DNA from: a virus
Virus record (IMG/VR): IMGVR_UViG_3300044712_001348
Location: 1 to 31,373 of that record
DNA: 31,373 bases
Reading direction: 5' to 3' (one strand)
The notes below the pieces were generated by a model that saw only the letters and a program-made list of their open reading frames with translations, was not told the DNA's origin and searched no databases. Of the stretch, positions 2,879-25,592 are shown piece after piece. Each line of letters opens with the position of its first letter. Position 1 is the stretch's first letter. The translations under genes and the position numbers were made by a program.

Positions 2879-3835
2879 ATGACTATACAAGAGATTAAAC
2901 AAGGACCGAGAGACGAGGCGAGTATCTCTCAAGGCAAAGAGACTTACAAAGTCCCTTTTGTTATTAAGATTGATACAGCAACAACTACCGCACTTGAGGT
3001 AGAAAGAGCAAGCGGTACAGTCAGCGGCGTAACCTACCCCGCATATGGAGCGGCTAATGCAATTGACTCGTCTCTGAAAGTAATCAACAAGACTGCCAAG
3101 CGTTGCATAGGTAGCGACGGCAAGGCAGCAAAGTATCATTGGGCGGTTGACGTTGAGTATGGTCTGCCTAATTTCAGCGGACCTACAGGCAATACAGAGA
3201 ATAGCGGCAATGTACGCATTAGCGTTAGCGGAGCGGAGACGTCTATCTATACGCAACTCGCTTTGGACGCAGACTCTACGCCAATCGTTAATAGCGTTGG
3301 GGATATATACCCCGATCCAATCGAGAGCGTTATCTATGACGAGACAATAACAATTGAGTATGAGGCAGATACGATTGACGGCGCGGCAATCGCAGCAATC
3401 AGAGGCAAGATAAATGACGATACGATTACGCTCTCAATTCCTCAAGGTACTTTGACTTATTCAAGGACTTGGACGGCACACCAAATCCTCGTCAAGTCAG
3501 TTGATTACAATGTTGTTGTTAGTCGCTCTGACAATACCGCTCATAAATGGGGCGTAAGAGTTGTCTTGCTTGGCAGAGAGGATACTTGGGACTTGGAACT
3601 GCCAGACAAAGGCTATCGTTATATGGTAGAGGTTGGGGAGTCTATCTTTGACTCGTCCTCCTCAAGTTCTGGCGGCGAAACAGGTGACGAAAATGGGTTA
3701 TGCGATTGGAAAGACACCGCTCAATACTTGGACGGCAACGGCTTTAGACTAACGGACGGCTCTCCCATTGTTACCTTGCCTCTTGTCCAACGATATACAG
3801 AGGCGGACGTTACTACATTCCTTGAGGCTATCTAA
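2879..3835 (+). CDS. Tail protein, probable distal tail or tip component
   Basis: 318 residues with many predicted beta strands. It is first after the tape measure, the usual slot of a distal tail protein, and is followed closely by two more tail genes. A poly-Ser stretch with Gly (SSSSSSGG) at about residues 258-265 looks like a linker. The C-terminal 50 residues after it form a small separate module that ends 'VTTFLEAI'. The start ATG has AAAGGGC 7 bases upstream; an ATG 4 bases earlier is out of frame. The family was not recognised, so the role is inferred from position. Confidence 0.6.
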   Translation: MTIQEIKQGPRDEASISQGKETYKVPFVIKIDTATTTALEVERASGTVSGVTYPAYGAANAIDSSLKVINKTAKRCIGSDGKAAKYHWAVDVEYGLPNFSGPTGNTENSGNVRISVSGAETSIYTQLALDADSTPIVNSVGDIYPDPIESVIYDETITIEYEADTIDGAAIAAIRGKINDDTITLSIPQGTLTYSRTWTAHQILVKSVDYNVVVSRSDNTAHKWGVRVVLLGREDTWDLELPDKGYRYMVEVGESIFDSSSSSSGGETGDENGLCDWKDTAQYLDGNGFRLTDGSPIVTLPLVQRYTEADVTTFLEAI

Positions 3836-3836
3836 T

Positions 3837-4313
3837 ATGGCAAAGATTGGAGCATTTTCACCAGAGTTGGCTCAAGCGATTGCGGACTATGTACGCAGCG
3901 AATTAGCCAAGCAACCCAAGCCGTTACCTCATGGACCCAACGGCAGAATTAAAACGCGCAAAACAATCATGGCAAAGATTACTGCGAGCGAAGGGACGGA
4001 CCCCGTAAAGCACTCTTGGGTTGAGCAAAAATGGAACTCAACAAGCGAGTCATTTGAGGATATGCCAGACGGCAAGAGCGGCTCTCTAACTCTTGAGTAT
4101 GCAGTTAACGGAGACGCAACGGAGACAACCGCCAACGATACAATCGTCTCTCTTACATTCAGCGAAGACCCAGAGGGCAACGGAGCGTGGGCTATCGGTA
4201 CTCCGTCTCTCCCCAAAGGGCAGCACCAATATCAAGGCTACTTTATGATTACGCAGAATGTAGCGGATTGGGGTTACTTGCGTAGTCACCCCGCGTTGGA
4301 CGAGGAGGAATAA
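3837..4313 (+). CDS. Tail-region protein, unrecognised
   Basis: 158 residues beginning MAKIGAFSPELAQAIADYVR. The short helical N-terminus has a basic linker (GRIKTRKTIM) and is followed by a beta-rich domain that ends acidic (DEEE). The start is one base after the stop of the preceding gene, and the stop overlaps the next start (TAATG), so the three tail genes are translationally coupled. An upstream in-frame extension would overlap the previous gene heavily and is not favoured. It is probably a baseplate or tail-tip accessory. Confidence 0.55.
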   Translation: MAKIGAFSPELAQAIADYVRSELAKQPKPLPHGPNGRIKTRKTIMAKITASEGTDPVKHSWVEQKWNSTSESFEDMPDGKSGSLTLEYAVNGDATETTANDTIVSLTFSEDPEGNGAWAIGTPSLPKGQHQYQGYFMITQNVADWGYLRSHPALDEEE

Positions 4314-7252
4314 TGGACATTTCCGCAATTGGCGACGACGCTCAAGACTACGCAACAATGATTGGCTACATACAGAAAGAGGTAAAGAAACGAGGCGACG
4401 TCGTTGAGGTAACTTTTCGTTGGCCGAAATCCGCTCAAGTATGGGAGAGCGGTATAGTTGGCTCAATCACCTCTACAACAATGACTGACGGCAGCAAGGC
4501 TTGGGAAGTCTCTCCGCAAAAGCGTTGGTATGGATACGACGACGCGGCAGACCCAAGCATTACGCCAGTCTACTACGATTTGATTATTGAAGTTGGCGGA
4601 CCCAAAGACGAGTACAAAGTAGTACGCGCAAGGGTAACGGATAATACCGCTACAACCTTGACGCTCTCCCCTTATGACATTCCCAACTATGTTACAGCGG
4701 GTTGGATTGATAGCGTCTCTGATTGCAGCGGTAAGCAGTATTATCTCATAGGACGCAAGGCAAGTAACTACGGACTTTGGTGGCATGATAGAGTTATCTC
4801 TTTCCCAAATGACGAGGAAAAACTACGAGGGACAATCTCAAGTTATACCTCTACAACAATCGTTGATACTGATAACTCTTTTGGCGCGGAATATGTTGGA
4901 GACGAGATACTTTTCTATACAGCAGACGGAGAGTTGAAGCGTCTTGAGATTACAGCAGTTGACGGCTCAACCTTAAGCGTCTCTCTTGGAAGCGATACCG
5001 CAAGCGGAGACTACTCAATAGTAAAAGCGGGCAACCGTTGCACGCCAACAAGACGCAGCGGACAGTTGGCAGTATGGTACAGAGGACGCAATGAGGCGGT
5101 TACAAGTTATGACCCAGACGATAACCTCTCGTCTACTCTCTTGCCTCAATACCAAATGTTATTCTCTGACAGCGGAGATTGCAGCGAGAGTTACATAACG
5201 GTATTTGACAGAGACATAATAGCGGCTCTCGATAGTCCTTGCAGTAATGCGGACGAGTTCTATTGCCCCAACATTTACAAATCAATTCATGGTTTGCAAA
5301 TGGCAGTTGAAGACCTATCTATTCATTTTGTCCCAATGCACTCGTATGTTGGTTGGGACGCTCTTGACATTGAGACATATACGGTTGCTCAATGCTTTGA
5401 CGACGCGGGCATTAATTCTTTTACGACCTCTGCAACGGCGGGCGAAACAGAGACAGAGTTTGCAATCTCTCTGCCTTATTTGGACGACATAACAATCTAT
5501 TGGACTATGTTGCATGGCAATGAGATTGTAGACAGCGGTACAGCGAGCGACTTTGCAGACGAGACATTGACGCTAACAACTGGCGGAGATCTTGAGGGCG
5601 AGACGATTACGCTTGTCTACTCATATGGTTGGACAAGGAAATTGCCAAGAGAGTTTAGGCATTGGTACGACGCTACCTTTTTTGTACCTACGGACGAGGA
5701 GGCGGGATCTTATACAACGCGCGGCAAGTCAGAGGCATATAGAGAGACTGGCGTATTGGGCGTTGTCTATGACTCTGACGAGTTTGTAGAGGCAGACAAC
5801 GCTATCTATGTTGGCGATAATCATAATGACCCTTTCCCCGATAGCGGAGTATCAAGCGAGTTTGCCCCTTATTGGGCAACAACCTATGAGGGCGTCTACT
5901 CTCAAGCCAATCAGTCAGAGGTATACTTTTCAATGAGAGGCGTTTGTACTGGCGGCTCTTCTGTCCATTTGGAAACTGACAAGGATTGGTTTGATACCTT
6001 TCCTAACTCAATTGTCCATACGGAGACTGGCACGGCAAGCAGCGGCTCAACCAATACCCTTACGGACTCGTCAAAGAGCGGAGAGTATTGGGAAGACGAC
6101 AGAGGTTTCTATATTGGCTTTATGTTGGTAATGACCTCTGGCGATAACAACGGCTTACGGCGTCCGATTGTTTCAAAGAGCGGTACAACCTTGACAGTCT
6201 CGCCAGCATTTCCAAATACAATTGATAGCGGCGATACCTACAAGGTTGTCTTTCCTCAAGTCCTCAACCGTTGGAAAGATCGGACAGTTGAGATTGCATT
6301 GAATGACGGCAGCGGCGTAACGGTTGAGGCTCTCATTACTCATAGCGACGACTCAACATTATGGTTTGCAGATTGCGGATATACGATAACAAGCGGAGCG
6401 AGTTTCTTTATACGGCAAGCGGTAGTAGGCAAAGTCTATACTCGTACCTCTGGCGAGTGGGTATTAGCAGACGTTGATACTTTGCCCGATATGATTACTC
6501 GTTATGGCAGAGATAGAAAGGGCGACATAAGGGGCAATTGGGTTTGGGAAGAGTTGGCGCAGTTTATCAATTGTCTCTATTGGACAAAGAGCGGAGTAAG
6601 CGTAACCCCAAGAGAGGACGACGAGGTAGAGGAGAAAAACTTTAAGTCGTCTCTGAATGGTAGGACGGGCGAGGCTTTCCCAGACTTTACGAGTTGGGCA
6701 GCGGTTAAGGCTTATTATACGAGTTGGTACAACTCTGTTGATTTCTTTTATGAAGAGGCTCCAACAGAAATCTTTCTCAACCCTATTGAGCAGAGCGGTA
6801 CGCCTCGTTGCGACGGCAGAGCCTCTTGGACTTATGAGGGAGCGTTTGACAACCCAACGGATTTATACGGAGCAACCTTTGAGAGAAAGTTTGGTTACTA
6901 TGTAACTACAACTCCGCTCAATCCCAACTATGGCAAGACGGTTGACTATGCAGTATTTGGTTGGTTGGACTCTGACGATACGCCAGTAACGGACGGCGTA
7001 GAGACTACTGACTTATTCAAGAATGAGTTTATCTTTAACGCCAATGGCGACACTATCCAATACCATGCTTGGGATATATTTGACTCAACGGTTGGTACGA
7101 CAGAGGGCGAGTTGAAGAGCGGCAAGTTTGGCTCTCATACCGTGCCTGAATTGACAGAGCCTACCGCAGTTGATTTGTATTTTGGACAAGTCAAAGAGGG
7201 TTACTATGTTGGCAATTCGTGCGCAATAGTTAAATGGGCGTTTGACGAGTAA
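4313..7252 (+). CDS. Large tail-tip/baseplate or receptor-binding protein
   Basis: 979 residues, rich in Asp, Thr, Tyr and Trp and almost free of long helices. It contains several repeated short barrel-like units of the form 'GTISSYTSTTIVDTDNSF...GDEILF', 'GTASSGSTNTLTDSSKSG...GFMLVM' and 'GIVGSITSTTMTDGSKAW' at about residues 46, 173 and 567. They look like copies of one small beta domain that reports a value change over a transition. It is the last gene of the tail operon and is followed by a terminator. A strong GAGGAGG ribosome site precedes the ATG. Most likely a central fibre, hub or host-contact protein; no enzymatic motif was recognised. Confidence 0.6.
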   Translation: MDISAIGDDAQDYATMIGYIQKEVKKRGDVVEVTFRWPKSAQVWESGIVGSITSTTMTDGSKAWEVSPQKRWYGYDDAADPSITPVYYDLIIEVGGPKDEYKVVRARVTDNTATTLTLSPYDIPNYVTAGWIDSVSDCSGKQYYLIGRKASNYGLWWHDRVISFPNDEEKLRGTISSYTSTTIVDTDNSFGAEYVGDEILFYTADGELKRLEITAVDGSTLSVSLGSDTASGDYSIVKAGNRCTPTRRSGQLAVWYRGRNEAVTSYDPDDNLSSTLLPQYQMLFSDSGDCSESYITVFDRDIIAALDSPCSNADEFYCPNIYKSIHGLQMAVEDLSIHFVPMHSYVGWDALDIETYTVAQCFDDAGINSFTTSATAGETETEFAISLPYLDDITIYWTMLHGNEIVDSGTASDFADETLTLTTGGDLEGETITLVYSYGWTRKLPREFRHWYDATFFVPTDEEAGSYTTRGKSEAYRETGVLGVVYDSDEFVEADNAIYVGDNHNDPFPDSGVSSEFAPYWATTYEGVYSQANQSEVYFSMRGVCTGGSSVHLETDKDWFDTFPNSIVHTETGTASSGSTNTLTDSSKSGEYWEDDRGFYIGFMLVMTSGDNNGLRRPIVSKSGTTLTVSPAFPNTIDSGDTYKVVFPQVLNRWKDRTVEIALNDGSGVTVEALITHSDDSTLWFADCGYTITSGASFFIRQAVVGKVYTRTSGEWVLADVDTLPDMITRYGRDRKGDIRGNWVWEELAQFINCLYWTKSGVSVTPREDDEVEEKNFKSSLNGRTGEAFPDFTSWAAVKAYYTSWYNSVDFFYEEAPTEIFLNPIEQSGTPRCDGRASWTYEGAFDNPTDLYGATFERKFGYYVTTTPLNPNYGKTVDYAVFGWLDSDDTPVTDGVETTDLFKNEFIFNANGDTIQYHAWDIFDSTVGTTEGELKSGKFGSHTVPELTEPTAVDLYFGQVKEGYYVGNSCAIVKWAFDE

Positions 7253-8830: not shown

Positions 8831-9043
8831 TTTTAGTAGTAATGGGTTTGGAAAATTAGTAGTAATTGACCCCTTGCCGTACTACTGATTTTCTTTAAGT
8901 CGTTGTTTTTACTGCACTTATATGTAATGGGCGGTACAGGGCTCGAACCTTATCCGCCTCTCTAAAAATCCCTTTTTTCATGTGAAAAACGAGGGTACGA
9001 AAAACATTTTAGTAGTAATGCGTTTTTATTTTTAGTAGTATTT
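8831..9043. repeat. Five integrase arm-type repeats (TTAGTAGTAAT)
   Basis: Direct copies occur at 8831-8844, 8856-8867, 9007-9020 and 9029-9043, and one inverted copy at 8880-8890 (TACTACTGATT). The shared sequence is TTTTAGTAGTAATG or a close variant. They flank the tRNA-like core on both sides, three on the left and two on the right, and lie immediately before the integrase gene. That is the layout of tyrosine-recombinase arm sites or excisionase sites. Confidence 0.7.
8928..8949 (-). other. Putative attP core: 3' end of a tRNA gene
   Basis: Read on the minus strand this is GGTTCGAGCCCTGTACCGCC followed by CA. It has the T-loop TTCGAGC, the 3' T-stem strand CCTGT, an acceptor strand ACCGCCC and discriminator A. 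The 5' half of a tRNA is absent: the bases before it do not complete the T-stem. This is what an attP core acquired from a tRNA 3' end looks like. The host tRNA is predicted to start GGGCGGT and to have ACAGG as its 5' T-stem strand. No CCA is encoded. Confidence 0.7.
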
Positions 9044-9066: not shown

Positions 9067-10419
9067 ATGACAGACAAAGCAAAAAAAGCGTTGCAATCTA
9101 TGGGAGTCCCAACCGTCTCTTGGAATGACAACTATCAACAGTTTTATACGAGGATTGGATACCGCAAATCTGCCAGCGGAAAACGGCAACAAGCCTTTCA
9201 TTACTTGGGCAAGGACGAGCGAGAGGCAGTCAGCAAAGCAGCGGCTCTCAAGTCTGAATGGCGAGCATTAAAAAAGGCTCAAGGCAAGCAAGCGGTTTGG
9301 CCGTCAACGGAGCGAGTTGCGAAGAAAGAAACCGTTGAGCGTCTCGCGCCAAATCTTGCAATGCGAAGTCTCTCCCCTCAACAAATCCAAGAGGCAATTG
9401 CCAACCTTGAATTGGAGAGAGACGAGAATGACCTTGAGGACGCCATACCTCAACAGACGCCAACGCTCCGCCTTGAGCAAGTCCAAGAGTTGTTTGATAC
9501 CTACCTCAAATCAAAGATCGGCGTAGGCGGCGGAGAGGGACTCAAGGCGAGTACCTACAAGGACAAGGCAAACAATCTCCGTATTGCTCTGGCGTATACA
9601 GACCCAAAGGCGAATATTGCAACGATTGGCTATGAGGAAATTGAGGCGTGGAAACTTAATATCTTTCGTAGGGTTGAAGCAAAGGCGGACCCAATCTCCA
9701 AGCGTACCGCAGTCAACTATTGCAGAGCGGTCAAGTCAATGTTGGATTGGGCGCATACTCGCAAAGACATTCCTTACCGCCATGCAGAGGATTACGCCTC
9801 TCTTTTCAGTTTCAAAAAGTTTACGCCAACGAATATTGAAAAGTACGACAAGGACAAGTTGAAACGCTTGCTCTCAAAGGCGACAGACCGAGAGCGTCTC
9901 TACTGCTATCTCGCTCTCAATTGCGGTTATTACCAAAGCGATATTGGGGGTATCCGCCTTGACGAGATCCGGAAGTTTGACGGCAGAATGGCGATTGTCC
10001 GCAAGCGAGAAAAGACAAGCCACCAGAATGATTTTGAGGCGGCTCATGTACTTTGGGACGAAACCTACGCCTTACTCAAAAAAGAAATGGCTCAACCTAA
10101 CGAGCATGGTAGAGCATTGCTCAACAGCAAGGGCGAGCCTCTCTACAGCAACGACGAGGGCAAGTCTCGATATGACGCAATCTCTGACAGTTGGGAAGAT
10201 TTGCGCGAGCGGAGCGGAGAGCAGATTGCTTTCAAGCAACTGCGAAAGATTGGAGCGTCTGCTATGGAGCGTATCGGCGGACTGCAAGCGAGACGCCAAT
10301 ACAAAGCGGGAGCGATTGACAGCGGCGATAAGGTTTATGTCCTTGAGTCGTTTGAAAACCTAACCCCTCATTTGTTGGCTTGGGGCAAAGAGTTACGCAA
10401 GGACAAGGTACTAAAATAA
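9067..10419 (+). CDS. Tyrosine recombinase-type integrase, divergent active site
   Basis: 450 residues. The N-terminal about 75 residues look like an arm-binding domain (QFYTRIGYRKSASGKRQQAF). A helical core-binding domain follows at about 135-235 and a catalytic-like domain at about 265-440. Around residue 283 the sequence LALNCGYYQSDIGGI sits where the usual G-x-R-x-S/T-E/D box is expected, so the first catalytic Arg seems to be missing. FKQLRKIGAS at about 388 corresponds to the H-x-L-R-H box with H replaced by K. Candidate nucleophiles are Tyr near 409 or 422. From memory, this variant resembles integrases common in Planctomycetota. Adjacent arm repeats and a tRNA-derived core support an integration role. 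Confidence 0.8.
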   Translation: MTDKAKKALQSMGVPTVSWNDNYQQFYTRIGYRKSASGKRQQAFHYLGKDEREAVSKAAALKSEWRALKKAQGKQAVWPSTERVAKKETVERLAPNLAMRSLSPQQIQEAIANLELERDENDLEDAIPQQTPTLRLEQVQELFDTYLKSKIGVGGGEGLKASTYKDKANNLRIALAYTDPKANIATIGYEEIEAWKLNIFRRVEAKADPISKRTAVNYCRAVKSMLDWAHTRKDIPYRHAEDYASLFSFKKFTPTNIEKYDKDKLKRLLSKATDRERLYCYLALNCGYYQSDIGGIRLDEIRKFDGRMAIVRKREKTSHQNDFEAAHVLWDETYALLKKEMAQPNEHGRALLNSKGEPLYSNDEGKSRYDAISDSWEDLRERSGEQIAFKQLRKIGASAMERIGGLQARRQYKAGAIDSGDKVYVLESFENLTPHLLAWGKELRKDKVLK

Positions 10420-10485
10420 AAGAGGGGTTAAGGGGGAGCGAGCGGTAAAAGATAATACCTATCGCAAGATTGGTTGGCGGAACGT

Positions 10486-10512
10486 AGAGGCTACCCTAAA
10501 ACGGTAGCCTCT
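10486..10512 (+). terminator. Integrase terminator
   Basis: A perfect 10-bp stem (AGAGGCTACC with GGTAGCCTCT) has a 7-base loop CTAAAAC and is followed by TTCCTTTTTTG. It lies 67 bases after the integrase stop. Confidence 0.9.
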
Positions 10513-10560
10513 TTCCTTTTTTGTCTTGACAACTACCCCCTACGTCGTTCCTGTTTGACC

Positions 10561-19366: not shown

Positions 19367-19645
19367 ATGGACAGTTGGACAGATAAGGTTGACTTTGAGA
19401 TTACCAAACATGAGGGGACAAAAGAGAATGGTCACCCATATGAAACGGGTTACTCAACAATCATAGACGGCTATGGCAGCGGCGTCTTTTGGGTTGGCAA
19501 GCATAAGGCTCAACAACAAGACGCTATCAAGTTATTCCTACTCCAAGCAGTCAACAACAACAGAGAGCGTATGCAACGCATTGAGAAAGCAGCAGAGAAG
19601 ACCCGCCAGTACCATAGGCAAAAACGTAATGCAAAACCGTTGTAG
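19367..19645 (+). CDS. Hypothetical protein
   Basis: 92 residues. The N-terminal half has aromatic and Gly content (GYSTIIDGYGSGVFWVGKHK). The C-terminal half is a basic helix (NNNRERMQRIEKAAEKTRQY) ending RQKRNAKPL, which may bind nucleic acid. AAGGGCAAACAGT, the shared leader, precedes the ATG. It overlaps the HNH gene by 17 bases. Function unknown. Confidence 0.6.
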   Translation: MDSWTDKVDFEITKHEGTKENGHPYETGYSTIIDGYGSGVFWVGKHKAQQQDAIKLFLLQAVNNNRERMQRIEKAAEKTRQYHRQKRNAKPL

Positions 19646-20469: not shown

Positions 20470-20633
20470 AGTTTCTTAAGTATCTATTAGCAGCAGTGGC
20501 TTGGGACTTATGTACATTCCTATTCGTTATCACGTTTCCATTATGGATATTCGGCGAATGGTATTTAGACAAGCATGAGGCGCGAACAACAAGAGAGGCT
20601 ACCAAATGGCTACAGAGAATGAGCAACCATTAA
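20466..20633 (+). CDS. Small membrane protein
   Basis: 55 residues, MKFLKYLLAAVAWDLCTFLF..., with one strong transmembrane span at about 5-28 and a basic helical tail (EARTTREATKWLQRM). It overlaps the previous gene by 4 bases and the next by 28. Size and charge pattern fit a pinholin-like or an accessory membrane protein; nothing in the context confirms a lysis role. Confidence 0.55.
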   Translation: MKFLKYLLAAVAWDLCTFLFVITFPLWIFGEWYLDKHEARTTREATKWLQRMSNH

Positions 20634-20782
20634 TACTCAAATGCGAGATATGCAATAACGAGTACACAGCAATCAATAGCGTTGAGGAAATGGTAGAGGA
20701 CGCTATCGAGAGGTTGGGGGAGACAATAGACCCCGTACTTGTATGCGAGCAATGCTATAACGCAATCATGAAAGGACAATAG
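20606..20782 (+). CDS. Small zinc-ribbon-like protein
   Basis: 58 residues, MATENEQPLILKCEICNNEY..., with CEIC and CEQC spaced 32 residues apart, a likely zinc-binding pair. It is nested over the end of the membrane protein gene (28-base overlap) and has GAGAGG well spaced before its ATG. The stop is followed within 6 bases by a tRNA-like RNA. Function unknown; such ribbons often bind nucleic acid or protein. Confidence 0.6.
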   Translation: MATENEQPLILKCEICNNEYTAINSVEEMVEDAIERLGETIDPVLVCEQCYNAIMKGQ

Positions 20783-20787
20783 GCAGC

Positions 20788-20914
20788 GGCTTTAGTTTAA
20801 CTGGCAGAATACAACCGAAGTACAAAGGGAATAAGGCAACGAATAAGCCGTAAGGCTAAAGCCTTTGAAGCATGGAAAAGGTTGAGGTGTTGGGGTTCGA
20901 CTCCCCTATAAGCC
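20788..20914 (+). ncRNA. tRNA-like RNA with a 63-base expansion in the anticodon loop
   Basis: Canonical T-arm: GGGG (20892-20895), TTCGACT loop, CCCC. Acceptor ends GGCTT (20788-20792) and AAGCC (20910-20914), followed by A as discriminator; only 5 bp pair. D-arm GTTT-AACTGGCA-GAAT (20795-20810) with the GG of a D-loop. Stem CAACC/GGTTG (20812-20816 with 20880-20884) sits where the anticodon stem belongs, but the loop between is 63 bases and carries its own structure: AAGGC/GCCTT (20833-20837 with 20861-20865) around AGCC-GTAA-GGCT. No CCA encoded. It could be a tRNA gene with an insertion or intron, or a tRNA mimic. Confidence 0.55.
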
Positions 20915-20927
20915 AATGCTTACTATT

Positions 20928-21212
20928 ATGAATTACTGCATAGCAAGAGACATTACTTGGACCTTTACCAATTGGGACTCTCTCGGTGCAACGCCATACC
21001 AAACAACAGAGGTAAGGGTTGAGTATGTCAACAGCAAACGCAGACGACATATCAAAGGACGCAGCAACCAACGCGCTCTGCTTTTCTCAACCCAAGCAGA
21101 GGCAGCAAAGTATATGGTTAAGAAACATATACGAGTAGAGGACGGTTGGGAGATAAGGCAAGACAAGCAACCTTACGAGTGGTTGCAACTTACGAAAGGG
21201 CAAACAGAATGA
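20928..21212 (+). CDS. Hypothetical protein, KGQTE-ending gene 1
   Basis: 94 residues from ATG 20928 (98 from ATG 20916, which lies one base past the tRNA-like RNA). MNYCIARDITWTFTNWDSLG; mixed strands and a basic middle (YVNSKRRRHIKGRSNQR). The last five codons spell KGQTE because the sequence AAAGGGCAAACAGAATGA is both its 3' end and the ribosome site plus start of the next gene. Function unknown. Confidence 0.6.
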   Translation: MNYCIARDITWTFTNWDSLGATPYQTTEVRVEYVNSKRRRHIKGRSNQRALLFSTQAEAAKYMVKKHIRVEDGWEIRQDKQPYEWLQLTKGQTE

Positions 21213-23522: not shown

Positions 23523-23546
23523 AAGTTCAAAAGTTCAGAGTATTAA
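23523..23546 (+). promoter_or_regulatory. Dispersed 24-bp motif, site 6
   Basis: Core AAGTTCAAAAGTTCAGA, then GTATTAA. It begins at the base after the stop codon of the glycosyltransferase and ends at the base before the first nucleotide of the tRNA-like element at 23547. Confidence 0.65.
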
Positions 23547-23628
23547 GTAAGGCATTAGGCGTTTTTGGTAATTCGCCCTGCATGATTTAACCGTCATGTA
23601 GACGAGAGGTTCGATCCCTCTGCCTTGC
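23547..23628 (+). tRNA. tRNA-like element with abnormal anticodon arm
   Basis: Acceptor stem GTAAGGC (23547-23553) with GCCTTGC (23622-23628), one wobble. D-arm GGCG...CGCC (23558-23561 with 23574-23577) with a GG-containing loop. T-arm AGAGG-TTCGATC-CCTCT (23605-23621). The anticodon arm is unusual: an 8-bp stem CTGCATGA/TCATGTAG (one wobble) with loop TTTAACCG, or in standard numbering a 5-bp stem and a 12-base loop. The linker after the acceptor has 4 bases instead of 2. No CCA. An anticodon cannot be assigned with confidence. It lies between a 24-bp motif and the small terminase gene. Confidence 0.6.
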
Positions 23629-23646
23629 TTTGAAAGAGATAAAAGA

Positions 23647-23964
23647 ATGACAACACCTAAAACAATGTCAGCAAAAGAGAAAGCAGTATGGAAAAAACTG
23701 TTTACTAATTTCGCTCCGCTCCATGCCGTTGAGGTTGAAATGGCAAAGCGGTATTGCGTTTGGTTTCTCGTTGCAGAGGCAGAGCAAAAGCGGCTCATGA
23801 AAGGCGAGACGACAGACTTTAATGATAAGCAAGGCAATACGGCGCAATCCTCGCATTTCAAAAATGCGAAAGACGCAGAGACAGAAATGAGACGTCTCTG
23901 GCAGCAACTTGAAAAGAGAATGACAAAAGTAAAAGAAAGTAAGTCAGAGTTTGACGAGTTGTAA
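23647..23964 (+). CDS. terS: Terminase small subunit
   Basis: 105 residues, helical and charged (MSAKEKAVWKKLFTNFAPLH...AVEVEMAKRYCVWF), with the pattern of P27-like small terminases: a helix with 'WKKL', a short aromatic helix 'YCVWFLVAEAE', a Thr/Asn-rich loop 'GNTAQSSHFKNAKDAETEMR' and a final helix. The stop overlaps the start of the large subunit (TAATG). The N-terminal helices should bind the packaging site. The assignment follows from context plus this pattern. Confidence 0.75.
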   Translation: MTTPKTMSAKEKAVWKKLFTNFAPLHAVEVEMAKRYCVWFLVAEAEQKRLMKGETTDFNDKQGNTAQSSHFKNAKDAETEMRRLWQQLEKRMTKVKESKSEFDEL

Positions 23965-25592
23965 TGAAGAAAGAGTTTGTATTTCTACAAGAGGACGAGA
24001 CATTCTATTTTGACCATGACGCAGTAGAGCGAGTCATACGGTTTATAGAGACGCTCTGCAAATTGTCAGAGCCAAGAGGCAAACCATTTGTATTGCTTCC
24101 ATGGCAGCGGCAAATAGTCAATGACATATTTGGTTGGAAGCGTAGAGACAATGACGAGCGACGATTTCAAAACGTCTATATTGAAGTCCCAAGAAAAAAC
24201 GGCAAGACATACTTTGTAGCGGCTCTCTTGCTTTACTTGCTCATGGCGGACGGCGTAAGCGGAGCAGAGGTATACGCCTCTGCTTGCACCAGAGAGCAGA
24301 GCGGTATTCTCTTTAAGTCCGTCCAACGAATGATACAGCAGAATAAGTTTTTCCTTGACCGTCTCATAGAAACCCCAAGCAAAAACAAGATTGAATATCC
24401 CAAAGGCGACGGCGTACTAAAGGCTCTCTCTGGCGACTCTGTAGGCTCGCATGGTAAACACCCCTCTGCCGTTGTTTGCGACGAGTTGCACGAATGGACT
24501 ACCCCCAAGTCAGAGGCTCTCTACGAGGCTCTAACGAGCGGCTTTGGCAATCGCAAATCCCCTCTCGTCATTCATATAACTACGGCGGGTTATGGCTCTC
24601 AACCTACGCTTGCCAAGCGTCTACATGACAAGGCGAAAGTATTTGCAGAGGGTACTCTTGAGGACGAGAGTTTCTACGGCGTCATATACGGCGCGGAGCA
24701 AACAGACGATTGGACAGACGAGGCGGTATGGAAGAAAGCAAACCCCTCATACTCGCTCGTATCCAAGACGCTCAAGAGAGAACTCGCAGCGGCAACTCTT
24801 GAACCGTCCAAACAAAATACTTTCTGCCGTCTCTACCTCAACATATGGACGCAGCAACAGACTCGTTGGTTAGACCTCGCAAAGTATGACGCTTGCGTTA
24901 AGGCGTTTTCTCTTGAGGAAATGAAGGGACAAGACGTTATTTTGGGTTGCGATTGGGGGCAAATCTACGACCTTACCGCTATCTCTCTAATCTTCCCTAG
25001 CGATTGGGACAAATGGAAACTTGCAGTAAAGACATATATGCCAGAGCAACAAATGCTCCGCCGTACCAAAGAGGACAACGTACCTTATGAGAGTTGGCAT
25101 AAACGAGGGTATCTCGATACGACTATTGGCATATCCAAAGGGTTGACGCTCGATTACCCAACGCTCATTGAGCAAGTCAAAGAGATTGCGACTAACTATA
25201 ATGTCGTTGCTCTTGGGTATGACCCCTCTCAACAGTCAATCAATATCATACCGCAGTTAGAAGAAATAGGGATTAACTGCTTTCCTATCTATCAATCTCA
25301 TAAAGAAATGTCGCCAGCAAGCAAAGAGTTTGAGCGGCGGTTAATCGCAAATGAGATAGAGATAGAGGATAACCCGTGTCTCCGTTGGCAAGCGGGCAAC
25401 GTAGAGGTTGAGTACCGTCAAGACTTAATCCGTCCAATTAAACCAAATCAAAAACAAGGATTTAGTAACGGAACTGCGAAATACAAGGTTGACGCAATTG
25501 TAGCGTCAATCATTGGCATACAGACGACGCTCTTGGCTTATCGAAATCGCAAGCAAGAGACAGAGGATAAGCCACAGATTTTCTTTGTTTGA
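23964..25592 (+). CDS. terL: Terminase large subunit
   Basis: 542 residues. ATPase domain: adenine-binding LLPWQRQIVNDIFGW at about 45-60, Walker A-like VPRKNGKT at about 75-82 and Walker B AVVCDELHEW at about 170-179, with a coupling region near HITTAGYG. Nuclease domain: GCDWGQIYDLTAIS at about 328-341 and a final YKVDAIVASI, the conserved Asp positions for metal binding. HK97-like, phage lambda-type packaging motor with an ATP-dependent translocase and RNase H-fold nuclease. Length is typical. Confidence 0.95.
   Translation: MKKEFVFLQEDETFYFDHDAVERVIRFIETLCKLSEPRGKPFVLLPWQRQIVNDIFGWKRRDNDERRFQNVYIEVPRKNGKTYFVAALLLYLLMADGVSGAEVYASACTREQSGILFKSVQRMIQQNKFFLDRLIETPSKNKIEYPKGDGVLKALSGDSVGSHGKHPSAVVCDELHEWTTPKSEALYEALTSGFGNRKSPLVIHITTAGYGSQPTLAKRLHDKAKVFAEGTLEDESFYGVIYGAEQTDDWTDEAVWKKANPSYSLVSKTLKRELAAATLEPSKQNTFCRLYLNIWTQQQTRWLDLAKYDACVKAFSLEEMKGQDVILGCDWGQIYDLTAISLIFPSDWDKWKLAVKTYMPEQQMLRRTKEDNVPYESWHKRGYLDTTIGISKGLTLDYPTLIEQVKEIATNYNVVALGYDPSQQSINIIPQLEEIGINCFPIYQSHKEMSPASKEFERRLIANEIEIEDNPCLRWQAGNVEVEYRQDLIRPIKPNQKQGFSNGTAKYKVDAIVASIIGIQTTLLAYRNRKQETEDKPQIFFV

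Follow-up and report, generated by a model that had tools for sequence, protein, structure and literature searches.

The RNA described here, RNA 1, is of a kind that is already known from two groups of molecules: the phage small stable RNAs C and D (species-1 and species-2) of T4, the role of which is unknown (PMC3014915), and the Y RNAs, which have been described as mimics of tRNA that link Rsr/Ro60 to PNPase (PMC8394870) and for which a role as inhibitors of anticodon nucleases has also been suggested (PMC7790460). Among phages, a Listeria phage has been proposed to have an Rsr together with putative Y RNAs (PMC12282133), and TROVE proteins have been noted in jumbo phages (PMC7824862). RNA 1 differs in topology from the bacterial Y RNA YrlA and in sequence from all of these RNAs. 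YrlA, which works with Rsr/Ro60, resembles it in that a tRNA-like body (D, T and acceptor arms) is joined to a further part, in YrlA a protein-binding one, within a total of 90-150 nt (PMC8394870, PMC7790460); however, in YrlA the 5' and 3' ends pair with each other in a closing stem, whereas RNA 1 ends at the acceptor and comes without a Ro-type motif or, in its record, a TROVE gene. The T4 species-1 RNA (rnaC) is likewise phage-encoded, and this small stable RNA of about 140 nt ends in a T arm (GGGTTCGAATCCCGG) followed by an acceptor-like strand; unlike RNA 1, it lies in a tRNA cluster, has a poor D arm, matches the class model introduced below only weakly (15.1 bits), and the two have no sequence similarity. 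A search for a named phage family of this design found none in the collection of papers covered.

The window analysed here is the whole of a viral record of 31,373 bases. It contains genes for an integrase (9067-10419), a terminase (23964-25592), a portal, a protease and an adaptor, and the phage is a small temperate one. Neither TROVE nor RtcB was found in this 31-kb record. A likely attP lies at about 8930-8962 on the minus strand, adjoining the integrase gene; there, GGTTCGAGCCCTGTACCGCCCA can be read as a host tRNA 3' end, and several TTAGTAGTAAT repeats close by resemble integrase arm sites. The idea that RNA 1 is itself a remnant of attP was rejected, since the likely attP tRNA end is elsewhere (near 8940, minus strand) and has a different sequence.

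RNA 1 occupies positions 20788..20915 of the plus strand (128 nt) and fills a coding-free gap of 133 nt in a tightly packed gene array. The upstream neighbour (20606..20782, plus strand) encodes 58 amino acids with CxxC-type cysteines, and the downstream ORF (20916..21212, plus strand), of 98 amino acids and unassigned function, has a start that abuts the RNA. The original prediction gave the span as 20781-20915; its end stands, but the start has to be moved to 20788. The upstream ORF ends with its stop codon at 20780-20782. A AAGGGCAAAC-type leader recurs right before the ATG of many ORFs in the window (those starting at 19367, 20053, 21418, 21693 and 21972, among others). The ORF at 20916 has no such leader, and RNA 1 occupies that place.

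Read from 5' to 3', all on the plus strand, RNA 1 begins with the acceptor strand GGCTT (20788..20792), which forms 5 bp with AAGCC (20910-20914), and continues with TA in the places of U8 and A9 (20793-20794). The D arm (20795..20810) has the stem GTTT (20795-20798)/GAAT (20807-20810) and the loop AACTGGCA; it is followed by A26 (20811) and by the strand CAACC (20812..20816), which pairs with GGTTG (20880..20884) to form a stem in the anticodon position. Between these two strands, a 63-nt insert (20817..20879), including AGCC-GTAA-GGCT and CAAAGG/CCTTTG, replaces the 7-nt anticodon loop. The T arm (20892..20906) is composed of GGGG (20892-20895), the loop TTCGACT and CCCC (20903-20906), and the 3' end (20910..20915) consists of the acceptor strand AAGCC and the discriminator base A20915, directly after which comes the ATG of the next ORF. 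The hexamer GAGGTG (20884..20889) is Shine-Dalgarno-like and would lie 11 nt from the ATG at 20916 if the T hairpin were looped out. Every element drawn in the original prediction is present in the sequence, namely the D and T arms, the acceptor of 5 bp that lacks 2 bp, the CAACC/GGTTG stem and an insert of exactly 63 nt.

The residues that build the tRNA elbow can be read from the sequence as well: U8, A14, R15, G18G19, A21, TTCRANY and G53-C61, of which A14, R15, G18G19 and A21 are contained in the D arm. The two absent acceptor pairs can be read as shifted to the T side (GUUGGGG/CCCCUAU, with one U-U mismatch), an arrangement that would keep 12 stack positions. Compared with a functional tRNA, RNA 1 has proper D and T arms, but its acceptor has 5 bp instead of 7, and in place of a 7-nt anticodon loop with U33 it has a 63-nt loop that begins GAAG and ends AAAA. 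The elements follow each other in the order of a normal tRNA, so that a permuted tRNA, as the original prediction had also considered, was rejected.

Standard programs do not report RNA 1. ARAGORN did not find it at default stringency, also with introns allowed, and neither did Rfam, the tRNA model of which leaves it out even at E = 10; the comparison with tRNA and tmRNA models suggested in the original prediction thus gave no match in either program. To quantify the resemblance, RNA 1 was scored as a tRNA-like element with any insert of 7-120 nt. When the whole window was shuffled with its dinucleotides preserved and both strands were scored, 1 of 6,947 sequences reached its score of 18; when the T arm was kept fixed and the upstream 190 bases were shuffled, 5 of 60,000 did so (P = 8e-5), although these figures flatter RNA 1 somewhat because the score was designed after the element had been seen. 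The combined pattern of D arm and T arm never arises in shuffles, and a scan of both strands of the window gives only two qualifying T arms, those of RNA 1 and of RNA 2 (see below). In addition, a covariance model built from 22 other tRNA-like RNAs with inserts, from which the window was left out, ranks RNA 1 at the top of the window (25.6 bits, E about 1.5e-4) with exactly the boundaries 20788-20915. As a whole, RNA 1 has an ordinary free energy (z = 0.01), which gives the tRNA shape no support.

No homologue of RNA 1 was found in searches with the exact T arm plus acceptor, with the D arm plus T arm or with the 5' half, by blastn in phages, or with the terminase, the major capsid candidate and a neighbouring ORF as bait. 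In the terminase alignment, the best 80 loci have 31-38% identity, and their scan gave no tRNA-like RNA of this kind. Covariation is consequently available for comparators of similar design and not for RNA 1. A pattern of a D arm, 66-96 bases and a T arm matches 41 viral loci, many of which are a tRNA body with an oversized arm, and several of which are scored by Rfam as tRNAs with long inserts. RNA 1 belongs to this class in that its D and T arms have the order found in a tRNA and are separated by about 66-96 nt. The 22 aligned comparator bodies covary: 96.8% of cells are paired, changes on both sides occur in 14 of the 16 body pairs, and no shuffle is as high on the covariation score. The compensatory changes that the original prediction had asked for in homologues are, in this sense, present in the comparators. 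Most members of the class keep a 7-bp acceptor, in contrast to the 5 bp of RNA 1.

One of the comparators is a tRNA-like RNA present in 83 records of Streptomyces phages, NootNoot among them (L004, L011, L019, L025, L041 and L143-L150). Its annotation is sparse: among 22 records listed across the ranking, it is labelled once as tRNA-Thr and once as a protein, and in the rest it has no label. In the anticodon position it has a Y-RNA-like arm with the conserved sequence TGYCGAA...GRTAWCA, and a TROVE gene is encoded in the same phage (record of L004). It resembles RNA 1 in being a phage-encoded, unpermuted tRNA body of similar length with an arm in the anticodon position, and differs from it by the conserved arm motif, the TROVE gene in the phage, the longer acceptor and its location within a tRNA array. 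In another viral locus (L050:893-1435), several tandem tRNA-like RNAs lie directly upstream of a phage TROVE ORF and carry a repeated GGGTCGAA...TTATCA, which we take to be a Ro60-binding type of sequence. A somewhat stricter pattern, applied to about 85,000 prokaryote genomes, gave one match, a Flavobacteriales contig on which two tandem tRNA-like RNAs, their anticodon arms replaced, belong to an RtcB operon (L049:216-459); downstream of them are a RING-like ORF (616-2853) and RtcB (3025-4446), and the second RNA has 77-78% matches in two other genomes of the family. An enrichment of TROVE among the carriers is not demonstrable: it occurs in 3-4 of the 17 records chosen and in 3 of the 17 others, and one of these is a carrier too. 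In a further subfamily (L003, L006, L008, L012, L015, L029 and L031), a hairpin followed by a conserved (A/G)CAGCA replaces the anticodon loop, and some genomes contain several copies.

The window contains another unannotated tRNA-like RNA, RNA 2 (23546..23629, plus strand), which forms a full cloverleaf. It is located in another large gap of the same gene array (23523-23646), before the ORF that precedes the terminase gene, and this ORF has a normal ribosome-binding site. RNA 2 has an 8-bp acceptor (AGTAAGGC/GCCTTGCT), the D arm GGCG(TTTTTGGTAATT)CGCC, an 8-bp stem in the anticodon position (CTGCATGA/TCATGTAG) with an 8-nt loop (TTTAACCG), and the T arm AGAGG(TTCGATC)CCTCT, so that acceptor and T stem stack as 8 + 5 bp. 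The cloverleaf is its predicted minimum-energy fold (-33.7 kcal/mol, z = -4.76). At their thresholds, ARAGORN and Rfam do not report RNA 2 either. The phage thus carries two RNAs of tRNA shape in which the anticodon arm is abnormal, and neither program lists a tRNA for it.

Several established classes were compared with RNA 1 and rejected. A tmRNA also has a tRNA-like domain in which something else replaces the anticodon arm; it is characterized by an alanine-type acceptor with G3-U70 and by a tag frame. RNA 1 is far shorter, its acceptor pair 3-70 is C-G instead of G-U, and neither ARAGORN nor Rfam gives a tmRNA match. Group I introns in tRNA genes also interrupt the anticodon loop, but the insert of RNA 1 has just 63 nt, no match to group I and no proper exon junction. 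As for YrlA, neither the motif nor the topology agrees: RNA 1 ends at the acceptor as a tRNA does, and its ends do not form a Ro-binding stem. The sequence ACCGAAG at 20814-20820 has no partner strand, and a scan of RNA 1 for the Ro-type motif, NCGAA with a 3' partner strand as in the comparator RNAs, was negative. RNA 1 was not filed as a Y RNA because it lacks this partner strand and its record has no TROVE or RtcB.

The reading that we prefer, with a probability of roughly 45%, is that RNA 1 is a phage-encoded noncoding RNA that mimics tRNA and works in trans, either as a scaffold or as a decoy. It would be co-transcribed with the neighbouring genes and, given the tRNA-like appearance of its acceptor, D arm and T arm, excised by host tRNA-processing enzymes, after which it would persist as a small stable RNA. 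Since its anticodon loop is missing, it cannot decode. The functional part would be the 63-nt arm, most likely as a binding site for a protein or an RNA, so that RNA 1 would act in trans like the Y RNAs or the T4 species-1 RNA. The "decoy or tRNA-shaped regulator" of the original prediction remains the best candidate reading. In its favour are the tRNA body with its elbow residues, a probability of about 1e-4 for a match by chance, the first rank in the independent model, the presence of RNA 2 in another large gap of the array, and the phage RNAs of like design with covarying bodies, including the conserved Streptomyces-phage RNA and the tandem RNAs next to TROVE and RtcB. Counted against it are the lack of a homologue and of covariation, the 5-bp acceptor, the preference for another predicted fold, the lack of a promoter (none of its own was found for RNA 1), and the lack of a Ro-type motif and of TROVE or RtcB. 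Because no relative was found, two readings without such a function stay in play. A decaying or rearranged tRNA gene of the phage, disrupted by an insertion in its anticodon loop and now functionless, would account for the short acceptor, the poor predicted fold and the lack of a relative known to keep the element; on the other hand, random decay would not be expected to spare the D loop, the T loop, the anticodon-position stem and the elbow residues alike, the spacing of the body is exact and the same genome has a second tRNA-like RNA, so that we consider decay unlikely. Chance resemblance in an ordinary intergenic stretch, to which the late design of the score and the silence of the Rfam tRNA model could point, is quite improbable in view of the shuffling results and of the first rank given to RNA 1 by an independent model. 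The least probable reading, to which we give very little weight, is a tRNA gene with a small intron in its anticodon loop, one of the options in the original prediction. The insert has the right position, and intron-like inserts that leave good loops do exist: a 393-kb phage (L031) has tRNA genes (10094-10269, 10379-10556 and, on the minus strand, 2740-2890) with introns of roughly 75-105 nt after the anticodon, which begin with ATACRG, are too small for group I and leave good anticodon loops (e.g., CTGTA...AA). RNA 1 is not of this kind. After splicing, a 7-nt loop would be made up of k bases from the beginning of the insert and 7-k from its end; since the insert begins GAAGTAC and ends TGGAAAA, position 33 is G or A in all eight possible splits, and U33 is lost at every junction. 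The blank result of ARAGORN with introns allowed and the lack of a group I match agree with this.

A problem arises with the fold of RNA 1 itself. An alternative 11-bp helix between GGCUUUAGUUU and AGGCUAAAGCC of the insert is predicted at -29.3 kcal/mol, against -26.6 kcal/mol for the tRNA shape, a small margin in a comparison that ignores D-loop/T-loop contacts and base modifications. The helix is built on CTAAAGCC (20856..20863, plus strand), a perfect 8-nt complement of GGCTTTAG in the 5' strand (20788-20795), from which the pairing extends to 11 bp with an equal or better fold; it would undo the tRNA shape. The pairing of CTAAAGCC with GGCTTTAG has a predicted probability of about 0.54 at 37 C, and the chance of such a match is about 0.02. 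The predicted ensemble accordingly favours the other fold (acceptor 0.44, D stem 0.01) and is weaker than that of most class members. The AGCC-GUAA-GGCU hairpin, which the original prediction placed in a folded insert, can be drawn but amounts to about 15% in folding, the 11-bp helix being preferred. The better alternative fold that the original prediction named as grounds for doubt therefore exists on paper, within the small margin of that comparison.

The two folds also bear on the possibility that the tRNA-shaped element is a leader acting in cis on the translation of the ORF at 20916-21212. GAGGTG would then be the ribosome-binding site, with the T hairpin looped out and the two folds hiding or exposing it; alternatively, processing would leave a leaderless mRNA. 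Such control is kept alive because the ATG at 20916 follows right after the discriminator base, GAGGTG is the sole sequence resembling a ribosome-binding site, though AAGGGCAAAC-type sites precede many of the array's ORFs, and the insert complements the 5' strand; the near-equal energies of the folds and the lack of a separate promoter also fit. We nevertheless find it doubtful, since it leaves the tRNA consensus bases of the D and T loops unexplained, the ORF after RNA 2 has a normal ribosome-binding site, and the complementarity on which a switch would depend has a P of just about 0.02. A combined scheme, which we regard as a long shot, would make RNA 1 bistable: in one fold it would be processed as a tRNA and, lacking an anticodon, serve as a decoy or scaffold; in the other, the pairing of the insert with the acceptor and D strand would free the ribosome-binding site of the next gene, and tRNA processing itself would be the switch.

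The window adds two elements of this kind from one small temperate phage, in which neither ARAGORN nor Rfam reports a tRNA. The comparators suggest that non-decoding tRNA-like RNAs are widespread in phages and that standard tRNA finders miss or mislabel them. Some of them have TROVE/Ro60 or RtcB genes as neighbours, an arrangement that points to the repair or quality control of RNA. The members in Streptomyces phages occur in culturable phages, and this would make the question testable.
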